Origin: a virus
Strand: one strand, 5' to 3'
Length of the DNA stretch: 29,627 nucleotides
Virus record (IMG/VR): IMGVR_UViG_3300046006_004229
Location: 1-29,627 of that record
Position 1 is the stretch's first letter. Each line of letters starts with the position of its first letter. The translations under genes and the position numbers were made by a program. The notes under the pieces are model-generated. The model was given only the letters and a program-made list of their open reading frames with translations, ran no database searches and had not been told where the DNA came from. Below, piece after piece: positions 10,078 through 27,195 of this stretch.

Positions 10078-10096
10078 AACCTTAATTTTTAACAAT

Positions 10097-10125
10097 AAAA
10101 AAGGCCCCGAAATAAATCGGGGCCT
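10097..10125 (-). terminator. Intrinsic terminator
   Basis: On the minus strand AGGCCCCGA-(6 nt)-TCGGGGCCT forms a 9-bp GC-rich stem (10102-10125) followed by a TTTTT tail (10101-10097). It lies 12 nt after the HTH gene stop and should end that short transcript. Confidence 0.93.
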
Positions 10126-10136
10126 GTGAACCCTAA

Positions 10137-10358
10137 TTAAGCAGATGCTTTCTGTGAATTTTTAATTCTACGAGAAGCCATTTTATAAGCTGCGTTAATG
10201 ATTTCAGCATTACGTCTACGTCCTGCAAGAACATTACTAATGTGACTTTGTGAAAAATCACCTCCAAATTGTTCTGTTAGGCGGGCGTTGTCTGTTTTAC
10301 GTCTACGAGCATTATAAGATGCTAACTTAGCCGTTACGTTTAGTTTTTTGTTACTCAT
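10137..10358 (-). CDS. Helix-turn-helix DNA-binding protein
   Basis: 73 aa, very basic. Residues about 28-50 (LTEQFGGDFSQSHISNVLAGRRRN) read as an XRE-like helix-turn-helix: a first helix, a turn, and the recognition helix SQSHISNVLAGRRRN. The N-terminus (LNVTAKLASYNARRRKTDNAR) is also basic. The gene has its own promoter (P5) and its own terminator, so it is expressed as a single-gene unit, which fits a regulator or a small abundant DNA-binding protein. No autorepression site can be proven from sequence, but the promoter spacers contain dyads. Confidence 0.8.
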   Translation of the reverse strand: MSNKKLNVTAKLASYNARRRKTDNARLTEQFGGDFSQSHISNVLAGRRRNAEIINAAYKMASRRIKNSQKASA

Positions 10359-10418: not shown

Positions 10419-10543
10419 CTATCCTTAAATTTTCTTCTAGAATAATTTTTTCCACTTGGCTTAACTTTAGAGATCATTCTTCTCCTAATTAATTGAGCCA
10501 AGTGACGGCTGTTATATCCATCTATTTTATCTTCTGCTTTCAT
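10400..10543 (-). CDS. 47-aa basic protein
   Basis: ATG at 10543 overlaps the TGA of the 93-aa gene by four bases; stop at 10400-10402. The product is basic with many Arg/Lys (HLAQLIRRRMISKVKPSGKN and YSRRKFK). Its 3' end overlaps the -33 box of promoter P5. Small Arg/Lys-rich proteins of this type recur in phages and may bind nucleic acid, but no family is recognised. Confidence 0.6.
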   Translation of the reverse strand: MKAEDKIDGYNSRHLAQLIRRRMISKVKPSGKNYSRRKFKDSLASDK

Positions 10544-10821
10544 ACTATTCTTAATTCTTTTGCTCTTTGATAGTTTATAACTTTACCATTATCCGGATGG
10601 ATGTATTTTCGTTTTGTTTTTGGTAACAATTCTTGTACCTGTTCAAATGATTTAGTTCCTTTAGGATATTCAATGGTGGTTTCATATGGATTGTATTTAC
10701 TTTTAGTAAGATCATACTTCCAAATCTGTTTAGTTCCATCTTCATCTATATAAACTCTTTCAAATTTATCAGATTGTGGTTTCACTTCAGTTAATATTGT
10801 TTTTGGTCTACCTCTACTCAT
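10540..10821 (-). CDS. Small DNA-binding-like protein with an AT-hook motif (93 aa)
   Basis: 93 aa. The N-terminus MSRGRPKT contains the AT-hook core RGRPK, which binds the minor groove of AT-rich DNA. The rest is basic and strand-rich (VYIDEDGTKQIWKYDLTKSK, KRKYIHPDNGKVINYQR). A single AT-hook motif is weak evidence on its own. First gene after promoter P6 with a 19-nt gap; couples to the 47-aa gene through ATGA. Confidence 0.65.
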   Translation of the reverse strand: MSRGRPKTILTEVKPQSDKFERVYIDEDGTKQIWKYDLTKSKYNPYETTIEYPKGTKSFEQVQELLPKTKRKYIHPDNGKVINYQRAKELRIV

Positions 10822-12913: not shown

Positions 12914-13067
12914 GTTTAAAAACTTTATATATTTTTAAAAACGCATCTGGTGGGAGGTGTTTGATTGTTGAGAAAAAGACAATAGCATCATAAAGAGATT
13001 CAAATTCTTTAGTATCAATAGGTTCATTTGTATTGTCTTCAATACGAGAAAAACTATATTTTTTCAT
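12906..13067 (-). CDS. 53-aa small protein
   Basis: ATG at 13067 overlaps the TGA of the 104-aa gene by four bases (ATGA); TAA at 12906-12908 lies inside the first codons of the acidic gene. Soluble, MKKYSFSRIEDNTNEP then SLYDAIVFFSTIKHLPPDAF. Coupling on both sides supports translation. Family unknown. Confidence 0.65.
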   Translation of the reverse strand: MKKYSFSRIEDNTNEPIDTKEFESLYDAIVFFSTIKHLPPDAFLKIYKVFKHD

Positions 13068-13378
13068 AACTTTTTTATTAATTTATCTATTTCTTTACAA
13101 ACTAAGTAATTTTCATGTTTAATATGAAACTGAATCATATTCTCTAATATTTGTTTATAATCAGCTTTATTTATAATAAGCATATGATTAAAATTAACAA
13201 TATTAAGTACTTTAGCTTCAGGTTGTTTTGTTTTTATAGCATACTTCATAGCTTCTAATACTTCATTAAATACAAATGTATTAAAATCAACAGAATCCCT
13301 TAAAACTTCTAATTCTTCCTGTTCATTTAGAATTAATTCTATATTAATAGGTTTACGTACTGTTTTAGTTCTTGCCAT
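13064..13378 (-). CDS. Small phage protein, unknown function (104 aa), probably leaderless mRNA
   Basis: 104 aa, soluble and mostly helical, basic N-terminus (MARTKTVRKPIN), C-terminus HENYLVCKEIDKLIKKL that resembles the end of the 98-aa protein at 11026-11322. Start fixed by context: the next in-frame Met is residue 44, far into the conserved-looking body. Promoter P7 puts its -7 box only 4 nt before this ATG, so the predicted transcript begins at or very near the start codon. Confidence 0.7.
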   Translation of the reverse strand: MARTKTVRKPINIELILNEQEELEVLRDSVDFNTFVFNEVLEAMKYAIKTKQPEAKVLNIVNFNHMLIINKADYKQILENMIQFHIKHENYLVCKEIDKLIKKL

Positions 13379-13382
13379 GATG

Positions 13383-13414
13383 TAAATATAATAAAAGATT
13401 ATTGATAAGCCAAA
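13383..13414 (-). promoter_or_regulatory. Bacteroidota-type promoter P7, 4 nt from the ATG
   Basis: TTTGG (13414-13410), 19-nt spacer, TATATTTA (13390-13383) on the minus strand; the start codon of the 104-aa gene is 13378-13376, leaving 4 nt (CATC). Dyad TTG-(6 nt)-CAA in the -33 region. Confidence 0.75.
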
Positions 13415-13422
13415 CTTATTTA

Positions 13423-14193
13423 TTATAAATATTTGAGATTAGTTTCTGAGTTATGTTGAATATATTTTCCCCACTTATACTTAGCGTATTCATGACAATT
13501 AGCTTCATATTGTTTTGATTGTTCAATTTTTTCAGGTGTTTTTGTACTAACTGAAACAAAATGATAAAACTGGCAACTATATGTTCTGATCATTTCAAAT
13601 CCATTCATCTGACATTTCATAAAAAACTCCCAATCTGCAACAAAACCGGATGGTGATGGATAATCTTCACCAAACCCACCTACTTTAAGAAAATCAAATT
13701 TATTCATGAATATTGGAAATGTACTTCCATTAGATTCTATTATATCAGTAGATATTTTTGATTCATATTCCCAAAATTTATTTAAGTCAAATGTTTTAGG
13801 TTCACGTCCTAAATCTTTAATATTAAATTGACGAAACATACTTGGGTATGGTTCAATTTGATTTGGTGAAACTACTTTTCCTTTAACATTAATCATTTCT
13901 AACTTAACATCCCAATCTTTAGGGGCAACGTTGTCGTCATTAATAATGAGAATCTTGTCATACATTGCATTAAACACGCCTAAATTAGTAGCTCGACAAG
14001 TACCTACATTTTGTTCTAGATCGAGTATATCAACTAATCCCGCGTATTTTTCTAATACGTTTTTACTAATTTCATAATCACCATCTACAACTACTATAAT
14101 TTGATTTTTACTTTGTTGTCCTGTGGTTAGTGATTCTAAACATAAATCCAATACTTCTGGATTATTGAATGTGGGTATAATTACTGATATCAT
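13423..14193 (-). CDS. GT2 glycosyltransferase
   Basis: 256 aa, GT-A fold. N-terminus MISVIIPTFNNP matches the GT2 start; VVVDGD (35-39) is the nucleotide-binding region; N85-D86-D87-N88 (IINDDNV) is the DXD-type metal-binding motif. GGFGEDYP (172-179) and ADWEF (186-190) are the acceptor-side and catalytic-base motifs. Donor and acceptor sugars cannot be read. No transmembrane helix, so soluble or peripheral. It begins in a 4-nt overlap with the oxygenase-like gene and is the last gene of the glycan block. Confidence 0.9.
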   Translation of the reverse strand: MISVIIPTFNNPEVLDLCLESLTTGQQSKNQIIVVVDGDYEISKNVLEKYAGLVDILDLEQNVGTCRATNLGVFNAMYDKILIINDDNVAPKDWDVKLEMINVKGKVVSPNQIEPYPSMFRQFNIKDLGREPKTFDLNKFWEYESKISTDIIESNGSTFPIFMNKFDFLKVGGFGEDYPSPSGFVADWEFFMKCQMNGFEMIRTYSCQFYHFVSVSTKTPEKIEQSKQYEANCHEYAKYKWGKYIQHNSETNLKYL

Positions 14194-14825
14194 ATTGTTT
14201 TATAGTATTCTCCTAGTTGGAATTTTGTTTTAGTATTGATTGAACCATGTTCACTTGGTTTATAGTTTGAATAAGTCATAACTCTAAAATCTACACTTAC
14301 TCTTGTTTTATTGGTTTCATTAATTTTATTACCATGAGTTAAATTACTTCCATCCCATTGAATAGTTTCTCCATAATTACAATTCATGGGTGCAAAATCA
14401 TTTTTATCTTCTTCAGATTCAACCCAAATAGTATTTGTATCAAAGGCATCAGTGAATGGTAAAAAGAAATTATCTTCTTTTACATCTACAGCCCAATTAA
14501 CATCTCTATAAAGTTTATCTTTATGGTATTCTCCAACAGCAATATTTTGAGGATATGCTATTCTAAATGTAGGAATAGCCTGATATACTATTTGTTCACC
14601 ATATATTGGTTTTATTACTTCTAAAATAAATTTATCATATATTTTAGTGAATTCATCAGTTCGAGCCCAATCATAATATAATTTATGATATTTTGTACTT
14701 TGGTCTTTCTCTCTACTAAATACTTCTACACTTTCATTTAAATTAGATAAATCATTTATTCCAAATACTTGTTCTAATTTTTCTTTAAATGAAAATTGTT
14801 CTTTATTATAATTAATTTTTATCAT
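14190..14825 (-). CDS. 2OG-Fe(II) oxygenase-like protein (StrG-like)
   Basis: 211 aa with the residues of a non-haem iron dioxygenase: H101-x-D103 (EYHKDKLY) and H164 (LTHGN) as the iron facial triad, and R175-x-S177 (TRVSVDFR) as the 2-oxoglutarate anchor. The H-x-D and 'THG...TRVSVDFR' pattern resembles StrG-like proteins of aminoglycoside and phage glycan clusters. It probably hydroxylates or otherwise oxidises a sugar or acceptor. It overlaps GT genes on both sides (4 and 14 nt). Activity is inferred. Confidence 0.75.
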   Translation of the reverse strand: MIKINYNKEQFSFKEKLEQVFGINDLSNLNESVEVFSREKDQSTKYHKLYYDWARTDEFTKIYDKFILEVIKPIYGEQIVYQAIPTFRIAYPQNIAVGEYHKDKLYRDVNWAVDVKEDNFFLPFTDAFDTNTIWVESEEDKNDFAPMNCNYGETIQWDGSNLTHGNKINETNKTRVSVDFRVMTYSNYKPSEHGSINTKTKFQLGEYYKTI

Positions 14826-15510
14826 TTATTTCTTTCCAATTAATAGTTGGTGACATTAATCCTTCCATACAGTGTGTTGATAAACCAGGTAATGGTGTTA
14901 TAATAAATCTATTTTTTGATTCATTAAGGTAAAGCCATTTATGATGATCTCCTACAGGTACATTTTTACCCATATGTTCTTCTCCATCTTCATCCATTAT
15001 TTTTTTAGTTGTAATATAACTACCGCAAGTACTAGGTACTGTTCTCCAATGACAAGTATCAGTAACAAATATTTTAGATACTAAATCATTATACATTGGT
15101 AAAAAATATTTATCATAATGGTCGTAAAGTGAGATGTAATTTAATCCTTTAAAGTTTTCAAATAAATTAACTATTTTATCTACCCAACCATCAACATGAA
15201 GATAATCATTTTCTAAGACATAAATTAAATCATTTTCATTTACTTTAGTTTCTAAAATTAAACTATAAATAGCTTTAGTAACTAATTCCATTGACCCACC
15301 TTTTATTTCATGAGTAATATATTTGTCTTTATATTTTGAAATCCAGTTATCTTCAACTTTACCATCCATTACTAAATGGAGTTCTACATCTTTATCTTTT
15401 ATTGTATTTAAAAGATTTATAAAACATTTTTCATAATCAAACCATTGAGGTCTTGATTTATTATCAGTTTTTGTCACATTATAGTGACTATAAAATATAT
15501 GTATTTTCAT
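14812..15510 (-). CDS. Glycosyltransferase-like protein
   Basis: 232 aa. The central motif VLENDYLHVDGW (E100-N-D102-Y) reads as a GT-A metal-binding loop preceded by a strand, and the C-terminal half has ITTKKIMDEDGEEHMGKN and PGLSTHCMEG, which could bind acceptor. The N-terminus KIHIFYSHYNVTK resembles a GT-A first strand. Less canonical than its GT2 neighbours, so family not assigned. Overlaps the oxygenase-like gene by 14 nt and follows the methyltransferase by 3 nt. Confidence 0.7.
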   Translation of the reverse strand: MKIHIFYSHYNVTKTDNKSRPQWFDYEKCFINLLNTIKDKDVELHLVMDGKVEDNWISKYKDKYITHEIKGGSMELVTKAIYSLILETKVNENDLIYVLENDYLHVDGWVDKIVNLFENFKGLNYISLYDHYDKYFLPMYNDLVSKIFVTDTCHWRTVPSTCGSYITTKKIMDEDGEEHMGKNVPVGDHHKWLYLNESKNRFIITPLPGLSTHCMEGLMSPTINWKEINDKN

Positions 15511-15513
15511 ATG

Positions 15514-16101
15514 CTAGTTTGTTAATGGTTCAAATTTCATAGTGTGAATATCAACATTTGAAAATTTATTACATCTTGCTAATATATTATACTTAATAGG
15601 AAATAAATTTCTATCGGGTGTTTGTAATCTATCAATTTCAATAATATCAAAATCTTTTAATAATACTTTCCATCCAAACTCAGTAAATCTCCAACAATCT
15701 GGAACAGGCCCATGTATTCTCCAATTTAAAGGAGCAGAGAATAAAATATATCCTTCATGTTTAACTATTCTTCTTAATTCTTCTATCGCTGCAAATGGAT
15801 TTACAGTGTGTTCTAATATTTCTAAACAAGTAATAACATCATATGTGGAATCCTTTATATGAGCATTATATTTTGTAATGTCACCTATAATATCTGGATT
15901 GTAATCAGATACTATATCTAAAGTTTCAATATCACACATATTAAAAGATATTTGGACTTCAGAACGTGTTTGAGGTCCTATTTCAAGTAATTTATTATTT
16001 AATACATTTCCATAGTTTTTTGCTGTTCTATTAATAAATGAATTAAGATGTTCTCTAGCTAATAAGAACGTGTTATTATCAAATTCTGATGGTTCAATCA
16101 T
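15514..16101 (-). CDS. Class I SAM-dependent methyltransferase
   Basis: 195 aa. Motif I is LLEIGPQT (E40-I-G-P; the usual glycine-rich loop is shortened), D63-type acidic region in DIVSDYNPDI, and motif III-like TYDVITCLEILEHTVNP (87-102), typical of the Methyltransf_11 group. ILFSAPLNWRIHGP follows. Probably O- or N-methylates a sugar or lipid-linked glycan in this block. Cytoplasmic. It lies 5 nt from the lactonase gene. Confidence 0.85.
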   Translation of the reverse strand: MIEPSEFDNNTFLLAREHLNSFINRTAKNYGNVLNNKLLEIGPQTRSEVQISFNMCDIETLDIVSDYNPDIIGDITKYNAHIKDSTYDVITCLEILEHTVNPFAAIEELRRIVKHEGYILFSAPLNWRIHGPVPDCWRFTEFGWKVLLKDFDIIEIDRLQTPDRNLFPIKYNILARCNKFSNVDIHTMKFEPLTN

Positions 16102-16106
16102 ATATT

Positions 16107-16925
16107 TTATTTTAATTTTTTTCTAAATAATGCTCCTCCAAGAAACTCATTTTCTTTTTTAGCAGTTGTGATAAAAAGTTCATTAAGATCTTCTCCTCCT
16201 AAACAACATGAAGTTACTCTTGAACAAGGCAATTCTATTTCATCTAATACTTTTCCAGTGTTAATATCCCATTTACAAACTCTTCCACCTTCCCATTCTG
16301 CTACCCAAATGTTTCCATCTAAATCAACACACATTCCATCTGGATATCCTATTCCATCAATTTCTATAATATGTTTTTCAAATAATATATCTCCGGTTTC
16401 TAAATTGTATTTATATTGAGCTACTTTATTTGTAGGAGTATCTATAAAATACATTTTATCTCCATTATGAGAAAATCCAATTCCGTTTGATATTAATAAG
16501 TCATTTAATAATACTTTAGATACTCCATTATGGAATGAAAATAATTTACCTTTTACAATTGATTCCTCAACAAAATAGTCTTTCTCACTTTTTGTACCTA
16601 CAATAAATCTTCCAATTGGATCAAATCTTCCATCATTATAACGTAAGTTTATATCTGACTCAAATTGTGTCATATATGTTCTTTTTTTAGTTTTTGGATT
16701 TATATTAAAAATACCATTTTTTTCCGCTGATATAATGTCTCCACTCTTATTTAAGGCCATACATCCTACATTTCCATCAGTAACAAAAGATTGTACTTCT
16801 CCTGTATTAGGATTTATTTGATAAATAAGACCTTGTTCTATTGATACACAATATATTAGTTTATTATTTTTATCCCAGACAGGTCCTTCTAATAAACTTG
16901 ATCCAGCGTGAAAAACTATTTCCAT
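16107..16925 (-). CDS. SMP-30/gluconolactonase-like sugar lactonase
   Basis: 272 aa, the size of a single six-bladed propeller. Family motifs visible: E13 in LLEGPVW, N97-D98-G99 (RYNDGRFDP), N147-G-I-G and YPDGMCVD with D196; E13, N147 and D196 are the expected calcium or zinc ligands and N97 a substrate contact. Such enzymes hydrolyse sugar lactones. It sits between the methyltransferase (5 nt) and the large GT2. The substrate in this phage is unknown. Confidence 0.9.
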   Translation of the reverse strand: MEIVFHAGSSLLEGPVWDKNNKLIYCVSIEQGLIYQINPNTGEVQSFVTDGNVGCMALNKSGDIISAEKNGIFNINPKTKKRTYMTQFESDINLRYNDGRFDPIGRFIVGTKSEKDYFVEESIVKGKLFSFHNGVSKVLLNDLLISNGIGFSHNGDKMYFIDTPTNKVAQYKYNLETGDILFEKHIIEIDGIGYPDGMCVDLDGNIWVAEWEGGRVCKWDINTGKVLDEIELPCSRVTSCCLGGEDLNELFITTAKKENEFLGGALFRKKLK

Positions 16926-16926
16926 A

Positions 16927-18129
16927 TTATAAGTTAATTTTATATTCTTCTAAAAGTTCTTGTATATTTGTTTTATTATAATGAGATACTTGAATTATTT
17001 TTTTCTCATCTACTCCATATTCTAATAATTTTGAAAATGTTTCATTAGAAATATCTTCATCAATTAATGCTATTAAAATATAATCATAATCAAATGACTT
17101 AATGTTATCAAATCCTACTATTGGTAGATTTAATTTTGAATAATATTCATACCATTCATCAATCCAACTTAAAACACTATATGTTTTATAAGTATTTATT
17201 TTCTTATACAAATGTTGACCAAATGTACCACCACCACAAATAATTAAATTATCTCCTGGTTTGATTTTATCAAAAGGATATAAATTTATTTCATCATTTG
17301 GTATTGGACCTTCAGTACTAACTGTTAATAAACTTAAAATATAATATTGGAGTTGAGGTAACATTATATCTAAAACTCCTCTATCAATAAAAATTTTCTT
17401 AAGACTTGTATAAATTGTTTCTATTTTAGAAATTTCAATTGCTTTTAAAGTTTTAATTAAAGAATCAGCACGTTGTCTATAATGATAGTATGGTTGTTCT
17501 AAAATAACTAATGTTTCAGCATCTAATAATGTAGGATAGAAACATAACGCATCTTCACCAATAGTTATACCTTCAGTCACTACTAATTGATTTTTTATTA
17601 ATAATTCTCTTCTATATAATTTACCCCATGAATATGAAAATATTCCAAACTGTGAGAATTTTCCATTATATAACATTTTAGGATAAATTGTTGATATAAG
17701 TTTCTTTTTATCATAAAATCCAGATGGAAATGTATTTTTTAAAATTTCAATTCTACCTTCTAAATTTTCCATATGAGATGATATTACAACATCTGCATTA
17801 AATTTAATAACTTGTTCTATATAATGTTTAATTAAATCTTCTTCAATCCAATCATCACCATCAACATATAAAATGTATTCTCCTGTTGATAAATTAAGTC
17901 CTGTTTTACGAGAACTAACTAACCCACCATTAGTTTTATGGATCACTTTAATTCTATTATCTATAGAAGCATAGTTATCACACATTTCTTTACTTGTATC
18001 AGTTGAACCATCATTAACAAGAATTATTTCAATATTCTTATATGATTGGTTTATAATACTTTGAACACACTTATCTATAAATAATTCACTATTATAAATA
18101 GGAACTATTATACTTACTAACTTACTCAT
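16927..18129 (-). CDS. GT2 glycosyltransferase with a C-terminal Rossmann-like domain
   Basis: 400 aa. Residues 1-230 are a GT2 domain: VSIIVPIYN (5-13), NDGSTD (39-44), VDGDDW (89-94; D90-x-D92-D93) and GEDALCF (190-196) before the catalytic base region. Residues about 285-385 are a second domain beginning DNLIICGGGTFGQHLYKK (G298-x-x-x-x-G303), a Rossmann-type nucleotide-binding motif. It may add a sugar-sensing or redox activity, so the protein is a fusion. It is 2 nt from the lactonase and 18 nt from the SDR. Donor and acceptor unknown. Confidence 0.88.
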   Translation of the reverse strand: MSKLVSIIVPIYNSELFIDKCVQSIINQSYKNIEIILVNDGSTDTSKEMCDNYASIDNRIKVIHKTNGGLVSSRKTGLNLSTGEYILYVDGDDWIEEDLIKHYIEQVIKFNADVVISSHMENLEGRIEILKNTFPSGFYDKKKLISTIYPKMLYNGKFSQFGIFSYSWGKLYRRELLIKNQLVVTEGITIGEDALCFYPTLLDAETLVILEQPYYHYRQRADSLIKTLKAIEISKIETIYTSLKKIFIDRGVLDIMLPQLQYYILSLLTVSTEGPIPNDEINLYPFDKIKPGDNLIICGGGTFGQHLYKKINTYKTYSVLSWIDEWYEYYSKLNLPIVGFDNIKSFDYDYILIALIDEDISNETFSKLLEYGVDEKKIIQVSHYNKTNIQELLEEYKINL

Positions 18130-18147
18130 AACTTATTTTTTATTTAA

Positions 18148-18897
18148 TTACATAAACCATCCACCAGTAATTCTAATATTAGAACCTGATACCATCATAG
18201 ATTTATTAGATAATAGATATATTATTGCGGGAACAATATCATCAATTTTGTTCATTCGACCCATAGGAATTAATTCTGATGCTTTTAGTCTTAAATCTTC
18301 TTCTGATATTCCTTGACTTTCTCTTAATGTTAGTTCTCCTTCTGTTGGTGTCCATCCCATTGTAATGTAATTAGCACGTATGTTATAATTACCATAGTTT
18401 CTAGCTATATGATTTGTTAATGTGACAACAGCTCCTTTAGAACAAGCATATGAAACTCTATCAATTTCACCCGCATCAGAATGAGGTGATCCAGTAAATA
18501 CTATTGATCCTCCTCCATTTTCTTTCATATATTTTATAGCGTACTTAGAACAAAATAAAGCACCTTTTAAATTTATATTAAATATTTCATCATGCATTTC
18601 TTCAGTACAATCTAATAATGACTGTATAGGTGTAATTCCAGCATAACTAAAAAATCCATCAACACGTCCTAATTTTTCATATGTAAATTTAAATAAATTT
18701 TCACAATCATGTACTTTAGTCATATCTGTTTTTATAAAATAAGCTTTACCATCATACTTTTCTAATTCAATTAAAAAGCTACCTGGTTCAACTATGTCAC
18801 CAAAAACAACATTATATCCTATTTTTACAAGTTCAATTACTACTTGTTTAGCTACTCCTTTAGTGCCTCCTGCTATAACAAACGTTTCTTTATTCAT
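18148..18897 (-). CDS. SDR-family NAD(P)-dependent oxidoreductase
   Basis: 249 aa. Start chosen at ATG 18897 (MNKETFVIAGGTKGVAKQV); an upstream ATG at 18951 gives a hydrophobic non-SDR leader that overlaps the ATP-grasp gene and was rejected. Glycine motif G10-G11-T-K-G14, Y85-A-G87 (NAG equivalent), N109, S137, and catalytic Y150-x-x-x-K154 (YACSKG) are present. C-terminal PMGRMNKIDDIVPAI and GGWFM are typical of classical SDR enzymes. It probably oxidises or reduces a sugar or hydroxy-acid intermediate. Ends 18 nt before the GT2 gene. Confidence 0.9.
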   Translation of the reverse strand: MNKETFVIAGGTKGVAKQVVIELVKIGYNVVFGDIVEPGSFLIELEKYDGKAYFIKTDMTKVHDCENLFKFTYEKLGRVDGFFSYAGITPIQSLLDCTEEMHDEIFNINLKGALFCSKYAIKYMKENGGGSIVFTGSPHSDAGEIDRVSYACSKGAVVTLTNHIARNYGNYNIRANYITMGWTPTEGELTLRESQGISEEDLRLKASELIPMGRMNKIDDIVPAIIYLLSNKSMMVSGSNIRITGGWFM

Positions 18898-18901
18898 ATT
18901 T

Positions 18902-20149
18902 TTAATTAAGAATAAATCCATTAAGAAGTTGATTATTATTATTGTTATCAAATACTTTTATAGTATTTTGAATTTCAGTAATTTTATTATTTAAATCTTC
19001 TTTAGTTTTACAATGTAAATATATTCTAGCCATAACTTGAGCTTCAGTACCTGTAATTTCATCACTAATTATACTTCCTTCAAATAAACGTCTTGATATA
19101 TGAAATATTGATGGATCATTTTTTAATACATCAAAACCTTGAATTTCATTAATTATACCTTTTTTTAGAAGAAACCATATTGTAGCTGAATAATTTTCAT
19201 TATTAGCTTGTATTATATTATATTTATTATTTATATCCTCACCTAATGCTACATCAATTAAGAATGATTTTTGATCAAATCCACTTATTTTTTGAATATG
19301 GAGATTTGGTGCTTCACCTTGTAATCTAAAGCCTGGATCATAATAGTGGAAAATATCATTTTCAATAAATGCTGATATTGTAAGTATAGCATTTTTTAAT
19401 CCTATATCTTTTAATAATTTTGATATTTTAGGATGTTCATTGTTTATATATTTATCTAATAAATTAGATGGATAAACGGCTCCTAAACAAACTTGGCTTG
19501 TTTTACCTTGTTCTCTAGTTGTGTACCTATCAGCTATAGCAGATAATATAGGATTACCATTTACAATTGTATAACTTATTATAACATCATTACAATCCAT
19601 AAATTTTTCTAATAATATATAGTCACTACTTGTATTATTAAATGCTTTTTCAATCCCAATACTTAATTCTTGTTCATTATAAGCTACTGACATTCCTTTT
19701 CCTGAATTTCTATCAATTGGTTTAATAAAAATAGGATAAGTTAAGTCTTGTATATTAGTAATTAAATCTGTTTTATAGAAAGTAGTGGATGGAATATTTT
19801 TAATATCATGTTCTTTACATAGATTATTAAATTTACCTTTATTTGTAAGTACTTCACATTGATATTGATCACCATAACATGGTAATTCAAGTGCTTCACA
19901 TACTTTTTGATAAGGTTCAATTAATCTATCTGCTACTCCAACTAAAACTCCATCAACTTTTTCTTGTTTGCAAAAATTTACTAATGAATCAACATCCATT
20001 CCATCAATATTGATCCCTCTATCCGCAAATTTCTTCGCGGGAGCATTAGGATCATTATCTGTGACTATAGTATATAGTCCCATAGATTTCGCTGTTTCAA
20101 TAAGTGGTATAGTTTCAGGATTAGATCCTAGAATTAGTAGTTTTTTCAT
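18902..20149 (-). CDS. ATP-grasp ligase (carbamoyl-phosphate synthase/PylC-like)
   Basis: 415 aa. Start set at ATG 20149 (MKKLLILGSNPETIPLI), because the longer frame from 20167 begins inside the -7 box of promoter P8. N-terminal Rossmann-like domain, then ATP-grasp motifs: K143 in FIKPIDRNSGKG (141-152), the LLEKFMDC strand (179-186) and DPGFRLQGE (271-279) which contains the metal-binding acidic and Asn residues. It ligates a carboxylate to an amine or thiol using ATP; the substrate is unknown, but an amino-acid decoration of a sugar fits its neighbours (DegT-like PLP protein, RmlD, SDR). Four nt separate it from the SDR gene. Confidence 0.88.
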   Translation of the reverse strand: MKKLLILGSNPETIPLIETAKSMGLYTIVTDNDPNAPAKKFADRGINIDGMDVDSLVNFCKQEKVDGVLVGVADRLIEPYQKVCEALELPCYGDQYQCEVLTNKGKFNNLCKEHDIKNIPSTTFYKTDLITNIQDLTYPIFIKPIDRNSGKGMSVAYNEQELSIGIEKAFNNTSSDYILLEKFMDCNDVIISYTIVNGNPILSAIADRYTTREQGKTSQVCLGAVYPSNLLDKYINNEHPKISKLLKDIGLKNAILTISAFIENDIFHYYDPGFRLQGEAPNLHIQKISGFDQKSFLIDVALGEDINNKYNIIQANNENYSATIWFLLKKGIINEIQGFDVLKNDPSIFHISRRLFEGSIISDEITGTEAQVMARIYLHCKTKEDLNNKITEIQNTIKVFDNNNNNQLLNGFILN

Positions 20150-20155
20150 ATGAGG

Positions 20156-20187
20156 TAAATATAACATTCATTATTATGGAAGCCAAA
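20156..20187 (-). promoter_or_regulatory. Bacteroidota-type promoter P8, 6 nt from the ATG
   Basis: TTTGG (20187-20183), 19-nt spacer, TATATTTA (20163-20156) on the minus strand; the ATP-grasp ATG is 20149-20147, leaving 6 nt (CCTCAT). The in-frame ATG at 20167 lies in the promoter and would not be transcribed. Confidence 0.75.
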
Positions 20188-20188
20188 T

Positions 20189-20824
20189 TTACCTATTTGC
20201 TTTTGTATATATTTCAAATTTAGATAAATCTGGATATGGTAATTCTAAATCTTCATTATGTTTTGGATTACCTTCACCATTATAGAATTGGTTCATTAAT
20301 AATAAACCTCTTGCTGATAATTCAGGCATCATATAAAAATTCCATCCTAACATATCTAAATTATCATCATGATATGAACATTCTCTTCTACCGCTGTATC
20401 TAGCGCGTTTAAACCATAAATATGCTTCATAATTATCAGTTAATATAGCACCACCTTTACTTAATTTAAAGTGCTTATATGGACCAGTAAATGAAATACA
20501 CATGTGTGTTCCTGGTTTATACATTTCAGAAGTAAAACATAAAGCTGAATCCCATACATTAGTTGGTTCTAATTGATAAGCTCCTTTTAATTTTTTACCT
20601 TTAACAGGTTTAAATTTAACTTTAGCACCTGCGTGAATAATTTCACATGGAACTGATGGATATGTTCTAGCAGGAATTGTAATTTCCATGTCTTTAACTT
20701 TTTCAAACATTAATGCTAAAAATAAAGCATTACTTTGATTATCTAAAGCTACTACATAAGGAGCACCTGTATATTCTCCTAATCTTCTTTCAAATTCATC
20801 TGTTATATCGTATACATTTTTCAT
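20189..20824 (-). CDS. Short DegT/DnrJ/EryC1/StrS-like PLP protein
   Basis: 211 aa, about 55-60% of the family's usual length of about 370. The large domain is recognisable: SNALFLALM (31-39), TYPSVPCEIIHAGAKVKF (54-71), the D92 position (VWDSALCF), and K117 or K120 in SFTGPYKHFKLSKGGAILT (111-129) as the PLP lysine. MPELSARGL matches the family's later conserved block, but the C-terminal small domain is missing. It may be an inactive or specialised form, for example making an amino sugar with a partner. Overlaps the RmlD-like gene by 4 nt. Confidence 0.75.
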   Translation of the reverse strand: MKNVYDITDEFERRLGEYTGAPYVVALDNQSNALFLALMFEKVKDMEITIPARTYPSVPCEIIHAGAKVKFKPVKGKKLKGAYQLEPTNVWDSALCFTSEMYKPGTHMCISFTGPYKHFKLSKGGAILTDNYEAYLWFKRARYSGRRECSYHDDNLDMLGWNFYMMPELSARGLLLMNQFYNGEGNPKHNEDLELPYPDLSKFEIYTKANR

Positions 20825-21717
20825 TTGTAAAATTCATTTAAATATTCATGTAAACATACTTTCCAATTTCTCATATAATTTTTTCCTAAATCATTTAAAG
20901 ATTTATTTATTAATTTTTCTGAGTATGGACGTGGAGCGAAATATTCTGTTTTAAAATAATCACTATCCACTTTATTAATTGTTAGTCCTAAATTAAGATA
21001 TTCATTAATAGCAACCGCTGTCTCATATCTACTTGCTTCACCTTCACTTACCATATTATATAACCCATAAGGTAATTCTTCTTCAATATGTCTTAAAATT
21101 GATGAAGCAAAATCTTTAGTATAAGTAGGAACACCTAATTTATCATCAACTACAAATAATTCTTTAGTTCCTGATTCTACTTGTTTCATAATTTTATTTA
21201 TGAACTTTTTATCTTTATCAGGTCCACCTCCCATCATCCATCCTGCTCTGAATATCCAGTATTTAGGGTAGTTTTGGTTTAATAAAAGTTGTTCTGTAAA
21301 ATATTTACTTTTACCATAAGTACTTAATGGAAATGGTTGATCTTCTTCAGTATAAAATTCTTTATCATTACCAAATATTCCTGCTGTACTAATAAAAACA
21401 TAAGGTATATTTAAATCCTTAGCTAAATTAAATAAATGAATAGCAGCTATAGTATTTGTTGAATAACAATCATCTTGTTCTTTTTCACAATATTCTAAAT
21501 CTACTAAAGCAGCAAAATTCAAAATAATATCTGGTTTATAATTATTTATTAAGTCAGTTGTATATTTTAAATCTCTAATATCACACCAACTAATATTTTC
21601 TGAAGTATCTTTATCTGTTAGTAAAAAATCTTTAGTATCAACAAGATTTTGTAATGTTGTACCTAACATTCCATTTGCTCCAGCTATAAATACTTTAGTA
21701 TATTTTGTATTTTTCAT
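20821..21717 (-). CDS. rmlD-like: RmlD-like NDP-sugar reductase (extended SDR)
   Basis: 298 aa. Rossmann glycine motif G13-A-N-G16-M-L-G19 (FIAGANGMLG), NFAALVDLEYCE (67-78) and the active-site Y134-x-x-x-K138 (STYGKSKYF). This is the layout of dTDP-4-dehydrorhamnose reductase and related sugar reductases. RmlA, RmlB and RmlC are not in the window, so the substrate would come from the host or another part of the genome. The first strand starts at residue 8, which rules out a much later ATG. Promoter P9 lies 4 nt upstream. Confidence 0.85.
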   Translation of the reverse strand: MKNTKYTKVFIAGANGMLGTTLQNLVDTKDFLLTDKDTSENISWCDIRDLKYTTDLINNYKPDIILNFAALVDLEYCEKEQDDCYSTNTIAAIHLFNLAKDLNIPYVFISTAGIFGNDKEFYTEEDQPFPLSTYGKSKYFTEQLLLNQNYPKYWIFRAGWMMGGGPDKDKKFINKIMKQVESGTKELFVVDDKLGVPTYTKDFASSILRHIEEELPYGLYNMVSEGEASRYETAVAINEYLNLGLTINKVDSDYFKTEYFAPRPYSEKLINKSLNDLGKNYMRNWKVCLHEYLNEFYK

Positions 21718-21721
21718 GTTG

Positions 21722-21753
21722 TTAATATAACTATCTTAAATTGATTGACCAAA
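21722..21753 (-). promoter_or_regulatory. Bacteroidota-type promoter P9, 4 nt from the ATG
   Basis: TTTGG (21753-21749), 19-nt spacer, TATATTAA (21729-21722) on the minus strand; ATG at 21717-21715, leaving 4 nt (CAAC). The promoter lies partly within the end of the upstream glycosyltransferase gene. Confidence 0.7.
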
Positions 21754-22605
21754 TTTTATTAATTCACTTCTTAAATTATTATTGGCTATTTGTTTAAATT
21801 CTTCTTGTTTATCTATTAATGATAAGTAACTTTTATATGGACTAAATCTGAATAAATGATCTTCAATTATAATTTCATTTTCTAAAACATACTGATTTAC
21901 ATCAATTCCTTTTTGTTTCATCATTTCTGAACAATACATAATATATGTATCTTCTAAACCATAATGACCTAATGATTCAGGAATTGTTATTTTTTTAGCT
22001 AATGGAGTACTTATAATAGTTGCCCATCCACCACCAAATTTAAATCCATCAATTGGACTCACAGTGACATTTCCTAATGATTTATTATGTTTGTATGGAT
22101 CTCTACTTTGAAAATGAATACCATCATTTTTATATTGATCATTAACTATAACATTCCAACTATCATCCCACATTGGGGTTGTTTGAGGTGTTAAAATAAA
22201 GTATGGTTGATCTTTTTTTAATACATTAACAGCATTAGTTATATAATAAAGTAAATTATTACTAAAAAATATATCAGTGTCTAATATTAATAAAGCATCT
22301 GCTTCTGTTTCTTTAAATGCTTTTCTACGATGTGAAACACATCCTTGAATACTATCATCTGTATTCACTTCAAACTTAGTTTTAGCCCAAGTTTTAGTAA
22401 GTTCTTCTAATTGATTAAACTTTTCAATAAAAAAGGCTTTGCGAATATTAGATGTTTGCCAATACACTAAATTAGTGTTTAAAACAACGTCTACTAGTAT
22501 TTCGTCGCTTTCATTTAATTGACTAGCATTATGTTTTAAATCAATTAAAATACGTTCTAACTGGTCGATTTCGTGGGGTAATGTATGTATAACTATTTGG
22601 AGCAT
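21736..22605 (-). CDS. Glycosyltransferase-like protein (GT-A)
   Basis: 289 aa. ADALLILDTDIFFSN (102-116) gives a clear D109-T-D111 metal-binding motif after a hydrophobic strand, and SHRRKAFKETEADAL is a typical preceding helix. The later FKFGGGWATIISTP and LGHYGLEDTYIMYCSE resemble the acceptor and catalytic segments of GT2-related enzymes. Soluble. Its start overlaps the end of the GT10-like gene by 13 nt, and its 3' end contains the -33 box of P9. Confidence 0.8.
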   Translation of the reverse strand: MLQIVIHTLPHEIDQLERILIDLKHNASQLNESDEILVDVVLNTNLVYWQTSNIRKAFFIEKFNQLEELTKTWAKTKFEVNTDDSIQGCVSHRRKAFKETEADALLILDTDIFFSNNLLYYITNAVNVLKKDQPYFILTPQTTPMWDDSWNVIVNDQYKNDGIHFQSRDPYKHNKSLGNVTVSPIDGFKFGGGWATIISTPLAKKITIPESLGHYGLEDTYIMYCSEMMKQKGIDVNQYVLENEIIIEDHLFRFSPYKSYLSLIDKQEEFKQIANNNLRSELIKFGQSI

Positions 22606-23411
22606 AAACCGCTTAATGTAAAAATTTCTGTTATTTTATCTATAATACTTTGTTCGTAACTAATATAATTAAGAGCTAATTGGTAATTATTTTCAATACT
22701 TTCTTTTTTTAGTTCATATATTTTAGGAGTAAGATATCTTGTTAAATGTATTAAATCATCAACATTCTCAAATTTAAATAAACCTGACTCATCAAAATGA
22801 TCCTTAATATTTGAACATCCCCAATATATAGGAATAGTTTTCATTAAGAAACAATCTAATATTTTTTCACTAAAGTATCCTCTATGTGAAAAATTTTCAA
22901 TTACTACTCCAAACATTGAGTTTCCAAATACTGTTTCTTTACCTATACGAGCATCATCTTCATTATGTCTATCACCTATTGTTTTATAAAAATTGGTAGG
23001 CATTTTAAATTCTTTTTCCCTATCTAAAATTTCATGACGTAATTGATGACCATAAGATTTTAATAATGTTCCACATAAGTGAGCTAATTCAAATTTTTTC
23101 TCATGTTCTTTTTCATATTGATCTGGTTTAAACCAAGTTTGACCAAAGGAAAAATATGTTGAGTTAAGTAAAGTATTTAATAATTTATCATTCCAAGTCA
23201 ATATGACTGAGAATAAATCTTTATTTGTAATAGTCCATTCATGTAAACCAAAATATTCATTTGGTTCTGCTAAAACCATTATATTGATTTCTGAAAGATC
23301 ATCTTGGTGTTTAGGAATATCATCTACAAATAAAGAAAAATTGATATGGTTTAAATGTTCAAGTTTTTGTTTGAACACATCTGGATTAAAAAACTTAGAA
23401 AATACTTTCAT
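22593..23411 (-). CDS. GT10-like (fucosyltransferase-type) glycosyltransferase
   Basis: 272 aa. Residues 167-201 carry the GT10 C-terminal signature: FGVVIENFSHRGYFSEKI then TIPIYWGCSNI, equivalent to 'F...EN....gY.TEKi.da...P.YwG' in alpha-1,3-fucosyltransferases. The N-terminal half is less conserved, as usual. It would transfer a 6-deoxyhexose or similar sugar from a GDP- or dTDP-sugar. The nearby RmlD-like reductase supports a 6-deoxyhexose. Three nt after a methyltransferase gene. Confidence 0.85.
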   Translation of the reverse strand: MKVFSKFFNPDVFKQKLEHLNHINFSLFVDDIPKHQDDLSEINIMVLAEPNEYFGLHEWTITNKDLFSVILTWNDKLLNTLLNSTYFSFGQTWFKPDQYEKEHEKKFELAHLCGTLLKSYGHQLRHEILDREKEFKMPTNFYKTIGDRHNEDDARIGKETVFGNSMFGVVIENFSHRGYFSEKILDCFLMKTIPIYWGCSNIKDHFDESGLFKFENVDDLIHLTRYLTPKIYELKKESIENNYQLALNYISYEQSIIDKITEIFTLSGLCSK

Positions 23412-23414
23412 CTA

Positions 23415-23966
23415 TTAATCAGTAAAATATATCCAACAACCTTCGGTTTCATAAATTATTTTGTCTTCAAAAAACTCATGTACTGCTTTTTTTACATCAT
23501 CACACCAAGTATAATCATGTCCTGCTATTACTCCACCTTTTTTAAGTTTTGGAAACCAAGCATTAATATCTTTTTTAACACTCTCATAATCATGAGCAGC
23601 ATCAATAAAAATAAAATCTAAACTTTCATCTGTATAATAATTTGCTCCATCCCAAGATAAAGCTTTAACAGGCTTTATTTGATGTTTAACAGGTTCAATA
23701 TTATTTAAAAATGTTTCATATAAATTTTCAAATTGATCTTCAGGTATTTCTGTTTGTGAGGGAACAAAATCCCAAGTATCAACACAGTCAAACTTAATAT
23801 TTTTTCCTGAATTAATAATTTCTACTGCCATATAAGCAGCACTCATTCCTTTCCAAGTACCAACCTCAACAAAATGAGAATTGGTTGGAAATTTATCTAC
23901 AATCATTGAATATAATCCAGGATATGTAAACCAATTTTCACCTAATGTTTTATAAAAATGTTCCAT
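23415..23966 (-). CDS. Class I SAM-dependent methyltransferase (Methyltransf_24 type)
   Basis: 183 aa. Motif I is FVEVGTWKGMSA (E34-V-G-T-W-K-G), motif II is FDCVDTWD (D63), and IDAAHDYESVKKD (121-133) with KKGGVIAGHDY (142-152) are the hallmarks of the Methyltransf_24 group, found often in glycan clusters of bacteria and cyanophages. Likely O-methylates a sugar. Spacing of 1 nt to the next methyltransferase. Confidence 0.9.
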   Translation of the reverse strand: MEHFYKTLGENWFTYPGLYSMIVDKFPTNSHFVEVGTWKGMSAAYMAVEIINSGKNIKFDCVDTWDFVPSQTEIPEDQFENLYETFLNNIEPVKHQIKPVKALSWDGANYYTDESLDFIFIDAAHDYESVKKDINAWFPKLKKGGVIAGHDYTWCDDVKKAVHEFFEDKIIYETEGCWIYFTD

Positions 23967-23967
23967 G

Positions 23968-24492
23968 TTATTTTGTCGCTGCTATATTTAAACTCATTAA
24001 TATTCCGTTTTCTTTATCCATGTGAGGTAAATATGATTTACTAAAATCGTCTCCTAGATAGTCTTCAGTATTCCATTCTGATATTGTTGTATAACCCATA
24101 GCTCTTAAATCATTAGATAAAGTATGGTAATCAAAAGTAATGTAATGATAGTTTTCATCATAATCTTGACCACCATAAAGTAATCCAATTAATGATTTTA
24201 AATCACCAGTCTTATTATAATAAGTACAAATCGCACTAAAATTAGGAATTGCTAAACGTAATGTACCTCCTGGTTTTAAAATTTCTAACCAACGTTTAAG
24301 TACTTCTTTATACTCCCATCTTCCAAAATGTTCTAATACATGACAAGCATATATTTCATCTACTGAATTTTCTTTATAATTTCGTAAAAAACGAATATTA
24401 TTAACTTCATCTACTCCAGGTAAATATCTAATATCAATATTAGTATAACCTTCTAAATGTTTTGTTCCGCAACCTAAATGCAATTTTATCAT
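23968..24492 (-). CDS. Class I SAM-dependent methyltransferase-like protein
   Basis: 174 aa. LHLGCGTKHLEGYTNID (4-20) is motif I followed by the acidic D20 of motif II. VDEIYACHVLEHFGRWE and EILKPGGTLRLAIPN complete the Methyltransf_11-like pattern, although the fold is short. Family clear; substrate unknown. Overlaps the GT2 gene by 4 nt. Confidence 0.85.
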   Translation of the reverse strand: MIKLHLGCGTKHLEGYTNIDIRYLPGVDEVNNIRFLRNYKENSVDEIYACHVLEHFGRWEYKEVLKRWLEILKPGGTLRLAIPNFSAICTYYNKTGDLKSLIGLLYGGQDYDENYHYITFDYHTLSNDLRAMGYTTISEWNTEDYLGDDFSKSYLPHMDKENGILMSLNIAATK

Positions 24493-25121
24493 ATTGTCTC
24501 GTAAAATTTATTTTGTTTTTCTTGTTTTGTAATTGATTTATGATGGTATAAACAAAAATCTTCATCTTCATAAGGTAAAGTAGCTACATTCATGTACCCA
24601 TCTAATATTTCATGAACTTTATTTTTCCACTTAATCCCTTTATTTAATTTAAGTATTCTCATTTGTGGATCAGGAAAGTTTATTCTGTTCTTTTCATCTA
24701 CTTTCCATCCCCATTGATCAATATGTTGTTGAGTAAGTCCTTCTACTATATTAACTCTAGGAACATAATAACAATCAACATCTAAATTCATTTCAAGTAC
24801 TTTTTTAATATTTTCAATCAAAAATGGATTTGGAATTTCATCAGCATCTATTTGAAATAAGTAATCACCTGTAGCCCATGTTAATAATTGATTTTTAAAA
24901 GTAGCAAAATCTCCATTTAAACGAGAATCTATTACTATTAACTGTTCATTATATATTTTTTTACAATTATTAAGTAATCTTGATATATCTGAATTGGTTT
25001 TATCTAAGTCTCGTAAAACTATAATTTCATCATTCTCATTGATGAGAGGACGCATATGGATCAATAATTGTTCTAATTCGTCTCTCTCATCACAAACTGT
25101 TATTCCGTAACTTATTTTCAT
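24489..25121 (-). CDS. GT2-like glycosyltransferase
   Basis: 210 aa. GITVCDERDELEQLL (6-20) is a GT2 start, FATFKNQLLTWATGDYLFQIDADE (72-95) gives the D92-A-D94-E95 metal-binding motif. KWKNKVHEILDGY follows, matching the 'W.g.vHE' region of the WaaE/KdtX-type GT2 enzymes. So this is a probable lipopolysaccharide-core-like or capsule-like GT. Starts in a 4-nt overlap with the 101-aa gene. Confidence 0.87.
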   Translation of the reverse strand: MKISYGITVCDERDELEQLLIHMRPLINENDEIIVLRDLDKTNSDISRLLNNCKKIYNEQLIVIDSRLNGDFATFKNQLLTWATGDYLFQIDADEIPNPFLIENIKKVLEMNLDVDCYYVPRVNIVEGLTQQHIDQWGWKVDEKNRINFPDPQMRILKLNKGIKWKNKVHEILDGYMNVATLPYEDEDFCLYHHKSITKQEKQNKFYETI

Positions 25122-25423
25122 CCTTTAAGTATTGTTTTTCCATTATTAGTAAAATCATAAGTTACAGTAGTGCTATTTCCAGTTCCTGTTCCTGTTCCAC
25201 AATATGTTTCATATGGATATTTTGGTGGATATATATATGGATTTACGGTTGGTGTTGGTGGATTGAAATCAATAATTTTTTTACCTACTTGAGATAATTT
25301 TTGTTTAATTGTTACTAATCCTGGAGATAAAGTAGTTACTTCTAATCCTTTACCTTGAGGTAGATTGTTTTCTAACCCATCTAAATAGCCCTCAAGCCAT
25401 TGTATAAATTCTTCTGGTCTCAT
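25118..25423 (-). CDS. Small phage protein with Pro/Gly/Thr-rich tail, probably leaderless mRNA
   Basis: 101 aa. N-terminus MRPEEFIQWLEGYLDGLENN, a phage-type helical head, then a Pro/Tyr-rich segment (NPYIYPPKYPYETYCG) and a Gly/Thr stretch (GTGTGTGNSTT). No membrane segment. The N-terminal MxPEEFIxW block is what I would expect at a true start, so promoter P10, whose -7 box lies 4 nt before the ATG, predicts a leaderless transcript. Overlaps the GT2 gene by 4 nt. Confidence 0.7.
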   Translation of the reverse strand: MRPEEFIQWLEGYLDGLENNLPQGKGLEVTTLSPGLVTIKQKLSQVGKKIIDFNPPTPTVNPYIYPPKYPYETYCGTGTGTGNSTTVTYDFTNNGKTILKG

Positions 25424-25427
25424 ATTA

Positions 25428-25459
25428 TTAATATAACATTATTCTGGTAAAAGGCCAAG
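25428..25459 (-). promoter_or_regulatory. Bacteroidota-type promoter P10, 4 nt from the ATG
   Basis: CTTGG (25459-25455, one mismatch from TTTGG), 19-nt spacer, TATATTAA (25435-25428) on the minus strand; ATG at 25423-25421, leaving 4 nt (TAAT). The -33 box lies in the end of the zinc-ribbon gene. Confidence 0.65.
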
Positions 25460-25888
25460 GTAAGTTAAAGCTTCTATAAACTCTTTTTCTTCAAAGAACT
25501 TTTGAGTTGTCATATCCATTCTCCACTTAGGAGAAGTACCGTCTTTAAGTTTATATTTATCTTTTTCTGACTCAAGTACTAATGTTGCTTTAACAGCTGC
25601 CCATTTCCAATTTGAGGCACTATTACCACTAGCAAACACCATTCCTTTATCAGGGATATTTACAGTTGAAGGCATCCATATTTTTCCTTCTTCATCTTCC
25701 ACCATTAAGGCTTTATATAAATCAGGAAGTACTTCCATTTGTTCTTTTAAAAACTCACTATCTGGTTTTATTATTGAGTTAGATATAAAACCACATCCAT
25801 AACACCAGAAATTTTTTATTCCTGGTGATACTTCTACCGCGTAACAGGCATTGCCTCCACAACGTGAACATTCTATTAATTCGTCCAT
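25439..25888 (-). CDS. Zinc-ribbon phage protein, unknown function (149 aa)
   Basis: 149 aa. N-terminal zinc ribbon: C8-x-x-C11 and C29-x-x-C32 (ECSRCGG...FWCYGCG). The rest is mixed alpha/beta (GKIWMPSTVNIPDKGMVFAS and SNWKWAAVKATLV). Proteins with this ribbon and a body of about 110 residues are known to me as conserved phage genes of unknown role. One nt after the GT-B gene's stop. Nucleic-acid or protein binding is inferred from the ribbon. Confidence 0.75.
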   Translation of the reverse strand: MDELIECSRCGGNACYAVEVSPGIKNFWCYGCGFISNSIIKPDSEFLKEQMEVLPDLYKALMVEDEEGKIWMPSTVNIPDKGMVFASGNSASNWKWAAVKATLVLESEKDKYKLKDGTSPKWRMDMTTQKFFEEKEFIEALTYLGLLPE

Positions 25889-25889
25889 A

Positions 25890-27194
25890 TTATATTTTAG
25901 TTAATTTTGGTAATTCTATTTTCTTTAATTGAGGTAAAATTAAAGGTATTGCTTTTGGAAATGTAGGAATATATTGGGTCAATAGTGAATCAGCTTTTTC
26001 CTTCATTTTATCCCAATTAAATTCAGTTTTACTTTTATATGCTTGACGTTTTGCTCCATCAGTATAATTTTTATAGTTTTCAAATACGTCTTTTAAATAA
26101 TGACCTATTTCTCCAGCATTTGGAGTAAACCATTGTGATTCTCGTATTAAGAACTGATTTACAGCACTTGGATGAACATTTTTAAGTTCTCCGTTTATTA
26201 AACTACAAAACTCTTTATTTAAAAAATCCATATGTCCACTCCATGCTGTTGTTATAAGTGGTTTTTTCATTAAACTAAATTCAAGTAATGGTCTTCCAAA
26301 TCCTTCACCTTTAGTTAAATTAACCATAGCTTTTACTTTTGGATGATTATAAATTTGATTTATTTCCTCATCAGTGAAATCACTATGTAAAAGATAAATA
26401 TTAGGTAAATTAGTTGATTCAACTGTTTCTCTTATTTGTTGAATTTTATTTAATATATCTTCTCTATCAGTATATGATGATACAGCACCTGATGTTTTTA
26501 GTATTAATGCTGGTTTTTTGGTTTTGTTTTTGAATGTTTCAAAAAATGCTTTAATTAATAAAGCTGTATTTTTTCTATCTTCACCAATATCACCTTGAAC
26601 CCAATGTCCTAAATATAAGTAAGCGAAATCTTCTTTAATACTATCTAATGCTTTAGATAAATCAGTTTCAGGAATGGTTTCTAGTACTTTATATAAATCA
26701 ATATTAGCTCCTTCAAATAATACTTCAACTGGTTTTTCTAATTGAATAGTACCTTCAACTTGATTAGTTTGTTTATTACGTCTTTCAAATTTACTAGTTT
26801 CAAATACTTGTTTTGAATGATTAGAAGAAACTATAGTTAAATTCATTCTATTAACTCCTTCAATCCAATCTGGTGGGCATATAGTAGTTTCAACACCCGC
26901 TGTAAAACCAATGTTATACTTACCTATAGGTGTGAATTCATTAGGTACTGTGATTTGTGCCCATATATCAGGTTGTTTAGGTAATTGAGGTGCATTTAAC
27001 CTATATTGATATAAAAATCCCCATTCAGGATTATCTTTACAAAATCCCCAAGCACAATCACCCCAACGTTGTGGTAGTAATTGAACTTCATACTTATCTA
27101 AAGCGATAATTGCTTTTATTAAATCTCGACTACGTGCTCCATACCCTGAATAGGTGTCAAATGGAGAACTTATTATAAATAACGGTTTACTCAT
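25890..27194 (-). CDS. GT-B glycosyltransferase (GT1/GT4 type)
   Basis: 434 aa. N-terminal Rossmann-like domain with SPFDTYSGYGARSRDLIKAI (10-29), C-terminal donor-binding domain with LGHWVQGDIGEDRKNT (195-210) and TKGEGFGRPLLEFSLMKKPL (294-313), in which E297 and E305 are the EX7E catalytic pair of GT4 retaining enzymes. No membrane segment. It probably transfers a sugar from a nucleotide donor. It is adjacent to another GT-B (1 nt), suggesting sequential steps. Confidence 0.9.
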   Translation of the reverse strand: MSKPLFIISSPFDTYSGYGARSRDLIKAIIALDKYEVQLLPQRWGDCAWGFCKDNPEWGFLYQYRLNAPQLPKQPDIWAQITVPNEFTPIGKYNIGFTAGVETTICPPDWIEGVNRMNLTIVSSNHSKQVFETSKFERRNKQTNQVEGTIQLEKPVEVLFEGANIDLYKVLETIPETDLSKALDSIKEDFAYLYLGHWVQGDIGEDRKNTALLIKAFFETFKNKTKKPALILKTSGAVSSYTDREDILNKIQQIRETVESTNLPNIYLLHSDFTDEEINQIYNHPKVKAMVNLTKGEGFGRPLLEFSLMKKPLITTAWSGHMDFLNKEFCSLINGELKNVHPSAVNQFLIRESQWFTPNAGEIGHYLKDVFENYKNYTDGAKRQAYKSKTEFNWDKMKEKADSLLTQYIPTFPKAIPLILPQLKKIELPKLTKI

Positions 27195-27195
27195 T

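Follow-up and report, generated by a model that had tools for sequence, protein, structure and literature searches.

Two discrete distances between a phage-type promoter and the start codon in a Bacteroidota phage and its relatives

The viral contig IMGVR_UViG_3300046006_004229 (29,627 nucleotides (nt), or 29.6 kilobases (kb); hereafter the window) has nearly all of its genes on the minus strand and carries exactly ten copies of a phage-type promoter, TTTGGc-N16-gTTATATTTA, all of them also on the minus strand. The distances from the -7 box of this promoter to the ATG that follows it form two discrete classes, which are conserved in related phages and are also seen to switch between orthologues. 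It is very probable, in our judgment, that the window phage and its relatives use this one promoter in two placements. In the short placement, 4-6 nt separate the end of the -7 box from the ATG, and transcription would begin at the A of the ATG or 1-2 nt before it, giving a leaderless messenger RNA (mRNA) that would be translated via its 5'-terminal AUG. In the long placement this separation is 12-30 nt, and an A-rich leader would be present on the mRNA. Distances of 7-11 nt appear to be avoided, presumably because a leader of 3-7 nt suits neither mode.

The promoter and its distance from the ATG

A search of the window with the pattern TTTGG-N{12,26}-GTTATATT gave eight exact matches, all on the minus strand, against 0.04 expected from shuffled sequences, and the two parts are 17 bases apart in every one of the eight. 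With a 33-nt weight matrix, the training copies of which include the window's own, ten minus-strand sites score at least 12, and there are none on the plus strand or in the reversed control. The two promoters missed by the exact pattern are P7 (ATTATATT) and P10 (CTTGG). In the same comparison, two near-genome-size relatives, G032 and G033 (160.8 and 154.8 kb), have 47 sites versus 3 and 46 versus 0, respectively. The profile of 312 exact copies from the window and related contigs reads gTTTGGCyTy, a variable stretch, and TgTTATATTtA. The motif is at chance level in four flavobacterial genomes; in cellular contigs it occurs singly per stretch among the matches listed, with no arrays. The host consensus TTTG-N-TAnnTTTG was also tried as the window's motif and was rejected, its matches being at chance level in the window, which marks the motif as phage-type. 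The -7 octamer of this phage-type promoter, TATATTTA, is host-like. The ten copies are given below, with the distance from the end of the octamer to the ATG; the classes are named after their predicted transcripts.

P1, 738-769, minus strand: leadered; 20 nt; metallophosphoesterase gene 94-717, product phrog_547
P2, 1876-1907, minus strand: leadered; 23 nt; ATP-dependent DNA ligase gene 773-1852, product phrog_114
P3, 7954-7985, minus strand: leadered; 25 nt; gene 7656-7928 for 90 amino acids (aa)
P4, 8936-8967, minus strand: leadered; 12 nt; 97-aa gene 8630-8923
P5, 10387-10418, minus strand: leadered; 28 nt; 73-aa gene 10137-10358
P6, 10841-10872, minus strand: leadered; 19 nt; 93-aa gene 10540-10821
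P7, 13383-13414, minus strand: leaderless class; 4 nt to the ATG at 13378; predicted transcription start (+1) at 13378
P8, 20156-20187, minus strand: leaderless class; 6 nt to the ATG at 20149; predicted +1 at 20150-20151 (leader of 1-2 nt)
P9, 21722-21753, minus strand: leaderless class; 4 nt to the ATG at 21717; predicted +1 at 21717
P10, 25428-25459, minus strand: leaderless class, CTTGG variant; 4 nt to the ATG at 25423; predicted +1 at 25423

All of these distances reproduce those of a preliminary description of the window (4, 6, 4 and 4 nt at P7-P10, and 12-28 nt at P1-P6). The positional split that it had reported, with the two classes in different halves, is present within the window but does not extend to the relatives, where the classes interleave.

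For a survey of related phages, exact-motif promoters were picked regardless of the ATG from all fetched relatives and from an IMG/VR scan; genes of the relatives were called mechanically, ATG being the one start codon allowed. The sequence collections are incomplete, and all survey counts are among the matches listed. There are 316 distinct sites, 250 of them with a downstream gene. The box-to-ATG distance is 2-6 nt in 53 of these 250 promoters (4-6 nt in 50), 7-11 nt in one, 12-16 nt in 23 and 17-30 nt in 134, so that the leadered part numbers 157, with a mode of 22 nt. When the sites are collapsed to combinations of protein family and distance, 12 remain at 4 nt, eight at 5 nt, five at 6 nt, none at 7-9 nt, one at 10 nt and about 129 at 12-30 nt. 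Under a density that rises through the neighbouring three-base bins, finding 25 at 4-6 nt versus 0 at 7-9 nt has a probability of 2^-25, or about 3e-8. A single-peaked distribution is untenable because of this imbalance and because a peak at 4-6 nt cannot yield a second one at 22 nt. Leaderless, intermediate and leadered promoters number 11, 0 and 34 in G032 and 12, 0 and 33 in G033; pooled with the window, the short class makes up 27 of 100 promoters, a figure that includes one contig-end G033 site two times and a 2-nt case that probably belongs to the leadered class. The idea of two classes put forward in the preliminary description is supported by this survey, which could have gone against it: two discrete classes recur in the related phages, the gap is empty at 7-9 nt after family collapse and orthologues jump from one class to the other. 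Flavobacterium phage immuto has just eight matrix matches with a called gene, too few to test distances.

Start codons and predicted transcription starts

The four genes behind the short-class promoters are:

P7-driven gene, 13064-13378, minus strand: 104 aa, without a family match
P8-driven gene, 18902-20149, minus strand: ATP-grasp gene, with Pfam pre-ATP-grasp (sub-threshold) and ATP-grasp domains
P9-driven gene, 20821-21717, minus strand: RmlD-like nucleotide-sugar epimerase/reductase gene (PF04321, E=4e-50)
P10-driven gene, 25118-25423, minus strand: 101 aa, without a family match

The preliminary description had considered later starts unlikely. For the P9 product this is supported by a Pfam RmlD_sub_bind match that runs from residue 8, at profile position 2. 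For the P8 product, residue 1 matches position 1 of the pre-ATP-grasp profile, with a score of 25.4 bits that is just below the curated cut-off of 27. For P7 and P10 the argument comes from relatives only. Scans of IMG/VR for orthologues of the P7, P8 and P10 proteins gave no match, and local tblastn searches with inspection were used instead. A protein similar to that of P7 (MARTVKQYVPPN..) is preceded by the promoter at 4 nt in G033 (position 52), and a gene similar to that of P10 likewise at 4 nt in G033 (143059), with the same layout in contig L250. The short spacing of P9 recurs at 5 nt in contig L259 and, by inspection, at 6 nt in L257.

Eight gene families have members in both distance classes. 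In most of them, including ligase and phosphoesterase, the leaderless and leadered N-termini align at residue 1, although the N-termini of a few small mixed families are more divergent. The window ligase, MELKTLYSRS at 23 nt, aligns from Met1 with MKLNTLYKRA of relatives at 4 nt, and ten relatives carry the orthologue of this P2 ligase at 4 nt. Phosphoesterases MKIKQEQGQKIWF (20 nt) and MKIELKQGQRLWF (6 nt) are aligned from Met1, as are MEVGSIVEC of the P4 family (12 nt) and MKVGALVEC of its relatives (4-5 nt). Such alignment indicates that the ATGs are right and that the distance switched class while the protein start stayed unchanged. No homologue beginning at a downstream codon was found for the well-aligned families present in both classes. 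By these comparisons, the start codons are correct where orthologues could be aligned.

In Flavobacterium johnsoniae the TAHHTTTG box spans -12 to -5, with 4 or 5 nt between box and start site in probable promoters (PMC6847099); the box is likewise at -12 to -5 in Flavobacterium psychrophilum (PMC9723704). Since the mapped Flavobacterium +1 is 4-5 nt past the box, the short class should be leaderless. Based on this rule, we infer that the +1 is the A of the ATG for P7, P9 and P10 and lies at 20150-20151 for P8. The earlier proposal that the mRNA would begin at or next to the ATG at P7-P10 agrees with the published Flavobacterium spacing (PMC6847099). By a published criterion for bacterial leaderless genes (PMC3160421), the -10/-7 box is some 10-12 nt ahead of the start codon, too near for a leader to fit; P7-P10, whose octamers begin 12-14 nt before the ATG, agree with it.

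Differences between the classes and alternative readings

In the leadered genes, positions -5 to -7 and -9 to -13 are A in about 70-83% of cases and position -1 is T in 74%, and the leaders often end in AAAGGTT-ATG or AAAAGTT-ATG. This A-rich signal fits Bacteroidota-type start signals; in the leaderless genes there is no space where it could stand. Three positions ahead of the TTATATT core, the spacer has T in 18/25 leaderless versus 33/105 leadered families (p=4e-4), and leaderless products are longer, with a median by family of 176 versus 81 aa (p=0.005). The leaderless set of G032 and G033 includes DNA polymerase, clamp loader, primase, a kinase-like ATPase, GTP cyclohydrolase I, phosphoesterase, ligase and a glycosyltransferase, and the leadered set fills small-gene arrays at 51-65 kb and 20-27 kb. 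Such gene content looks like a division into middle (leaderless) and early (leadered) genes. In the window the ligase and phosphoesterase genes belong to the leadered class, so function does not determine the class. We infer leaderless translation and a middle-gene role for the short class. The two placements suggest that a single virus initiates protein synthesis in two distinct ways.

Two other candidate marks of the leaderless class were rejected. Spacer hairpins are enriched over shuffles in both classes, with stems of at least five pairs in 24% and 20% of families by class versus 3% and 8% in shuffles, and do not differ between the classes; a second codon AAA shows no difference after family collapse (p=0.34). 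It is noted that the P2 spacer (1876-1907) contains a G+C-rich hairpin, GGCTCC-TCC-GGGAGCC, and that some G032 and G033 spacers contain GGCC-TTCG-GGCC followed by T, in each case shortly past the upstream stop codon. A possible interpretation is a terminator fused with the next promoter.

It could be argued that the short-spaced promoters are secondary and that polycistronic transcripts initiated upstream are the main source of expression of their genes, with translation by reinitiation or scanning. The genes are indeed co-directional and closely packed, and the glycan region described below has few promoters. We regard this as unlikely, given that the spacing is kept in orthologues and recurs in many unrelated families, and that the GGCC-TTCG-GGCC hairpin with its T run in some spacers could stop read-through. 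Simple compaction, in which tight gene packing pushed promoters against the start codon with no separate translation mode, is quite improbable. Several short-class promoters do overlap the end of the upstream gene (the TTTGG of P9 sits within the final codons of that gene, and P10 also overlaps its upstream gene), and the short class has a median of 1 nt free upstream of TTTGG, versus 6 nt for the leadered class. However, overlap with the upstream gene is also found among leadered promoters, compaction predicts a continuum whereas 7-9 nt is empty, and 7/26 short-class promoters have at least 14 nt free upstream of TTTGG, where a leader would have fitted. Least probable is that the distances are real but the phage +1 lies elsewhere, so that the 'leaderless' mRNAs are short-leadered or start inside the ATG: the phage -7 box does end in A where the host consensus ends in G, but mapped Flavobacterium promoters follow the 4-5 nt rule, the short class lies at 4, 5 and 6 nt with nearly nothing at 2-3 nt, and a start inside the ATG would destroy the start codon of many unrelated genes.

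Several points nevertheless weigh against two discrete placements with a leaderless short class. The +1 was placed from host promoters, and in its last base the box of the phages, TAtaTTtA, departs from the host TAnnTTTG, so the +1 could shift by a base or two. Read-through from upstream genes on the same strand could add leadered transcripts. No clear conserved counterpart of P8 was found in the relatives by local tblastn and inspection. Two cases in the leaderless set are at 2 nt, one of which (G033 27343) has a lipoprotein-like start at 20 nt and is therefore probably leadered, and one 7-nt distance occurs among the weaker matrix-only matches (contig L053, score 11.9).

In two more distant relatives (L039 and L064), the ligase or phosphoesterase start is preceded by another promoter type (e.g. 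GGCTTGGTTTTCCAAGCCTTCTTTCGTATATTCACAAT-ATG) at a similar short spacing, and leaderless placement may thus outlast the motif.

Phage relationships, known systems and implications

Sequence comparison indicates that the window is related to large Bacteroidota phages, the nearest cultured one found being Flavobacterium phage immuto. Among annotated phages, the 149-aa product of 25439-25888 matches only four immuto records, and in immuto, too, a nuclease, two glycosyltransferases and the 149-aa gene follow one another in this order ahead of a glycan cluster; immuto also has T4-like gp20 and gp23. Over 13423-28641, glycosyltransferase, methyltransferase, RmlD-like and ATP-grasp genes form a long cluster, with an outline common to immuto, that is a putative phage-borne surface-glycan pathway. 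Elsewhere, a terminator-like hairpin (GGCCCCGATTTATTTCGGGGCC and T6) at 10077-10130 stands just before the gene 9850-10095; a similar gene of G033 (promoter at 3278) has a leadered promoter at the hairpin's place. The gene 9850-10095 likely starts not at its TTG but further downstream, at the in-frame ATG near 10077 (MKKRLSITK..).

The closest precedent found is the Thermus thermophilus phage phiYS40, for which most middle and late mRNAs are reported to be leaderless, with IF2 raised and IF3 lowered (PMC3594737). The likeness, as far as that report describes it, is of a phage with one leaderless and one leadered gene set; two discrete promoter sets of this kind are found in the window, in G032 and G033 and in the survey among the matches listed, and here replication-type genes are in the leaderless set. 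In contrast to phiYS40, the host phylum lacks Shine-Dalgarno pairing and one common promoter core serves both classes. A regulated two-mode programme is conceivable but doubtful: leadered early genes would be translated via the A-rich signal, and leaderless replication genes would be favoured later by a phage-driven change in host initiation like that of phiYS40, the spacing having been switched gene by gene in evolution. Of the candidate devices considered, neither a phage-encoded ribosomal protein bS21 nor a phage-encoded sigma-70 region 4 had a match in the phage records searched. The cI mRNA of lambda also starts at the AUG, but involves a single gene and one promoter, whereas the class described here is spread over the genome.

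The promoter resembles that of the Bacteroidota primary sigma factor (TTTG / TAnnTTTG) in having two boxes at similar spacing, and TATATTTA fits TAnnTTT-. It differs in the extended TTTGGC at -33, in the TG that precedes the -7 box of the leadered class and in the final base of the box, which is A in >80% of copies instead of the host G. Leaderless genes are reported to make up 5.5% in F. psychrophilum (PMC9723704), leaders under 10 nt 3.7% in Bacteroides thetaiotaomicron (PMC7366714), and leaders of at most 10 nt up to 13% in F. johnsoniae (PMC6847099). When three flavobacteria were scanned over 400 kb each, 1/60, 4/100 and 10/69 host -7 boxes had the 4-6 nt spacing, so the host evidently can use this arrangement and the phages use it more. 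In Nonlabens tegetincola (L444-L463, 400 kb), 8/69 cellular -7 boxes are exactly 4 nt from the ATG, more than in the two Flavobacterium species, and some marine flavobacteria may therefore have many leaderless genes. The cellular leaderless minority of Bacteroidota follows the same spacing rule as the phages; unlike it, the phages have the short class at 27/100 promoters, a motif that is at chance level in four flavobacterial genomes and a sharper avoidance of intermediate spacings. In the literature searched, which was mainly open-access with most subscription journals outside it, no description of a leaderless class in Bacteroidota phages was found.

In Gram-negative bacteria, leaderless translation is generally considered rare, and it has been little studied in Bacteroidota, the ribosomes of which work without Shine-Dalgarno pairing. 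A phage lineage in which about a quarter of the promoters are in the predicted leaderless placement, with orthologues in both states, would provide matched pairs for the study of leader function in Bacteroidota. These pairs also bear on how short a leader can be, and a practical outcome is a rule for calling start codons in these phages.

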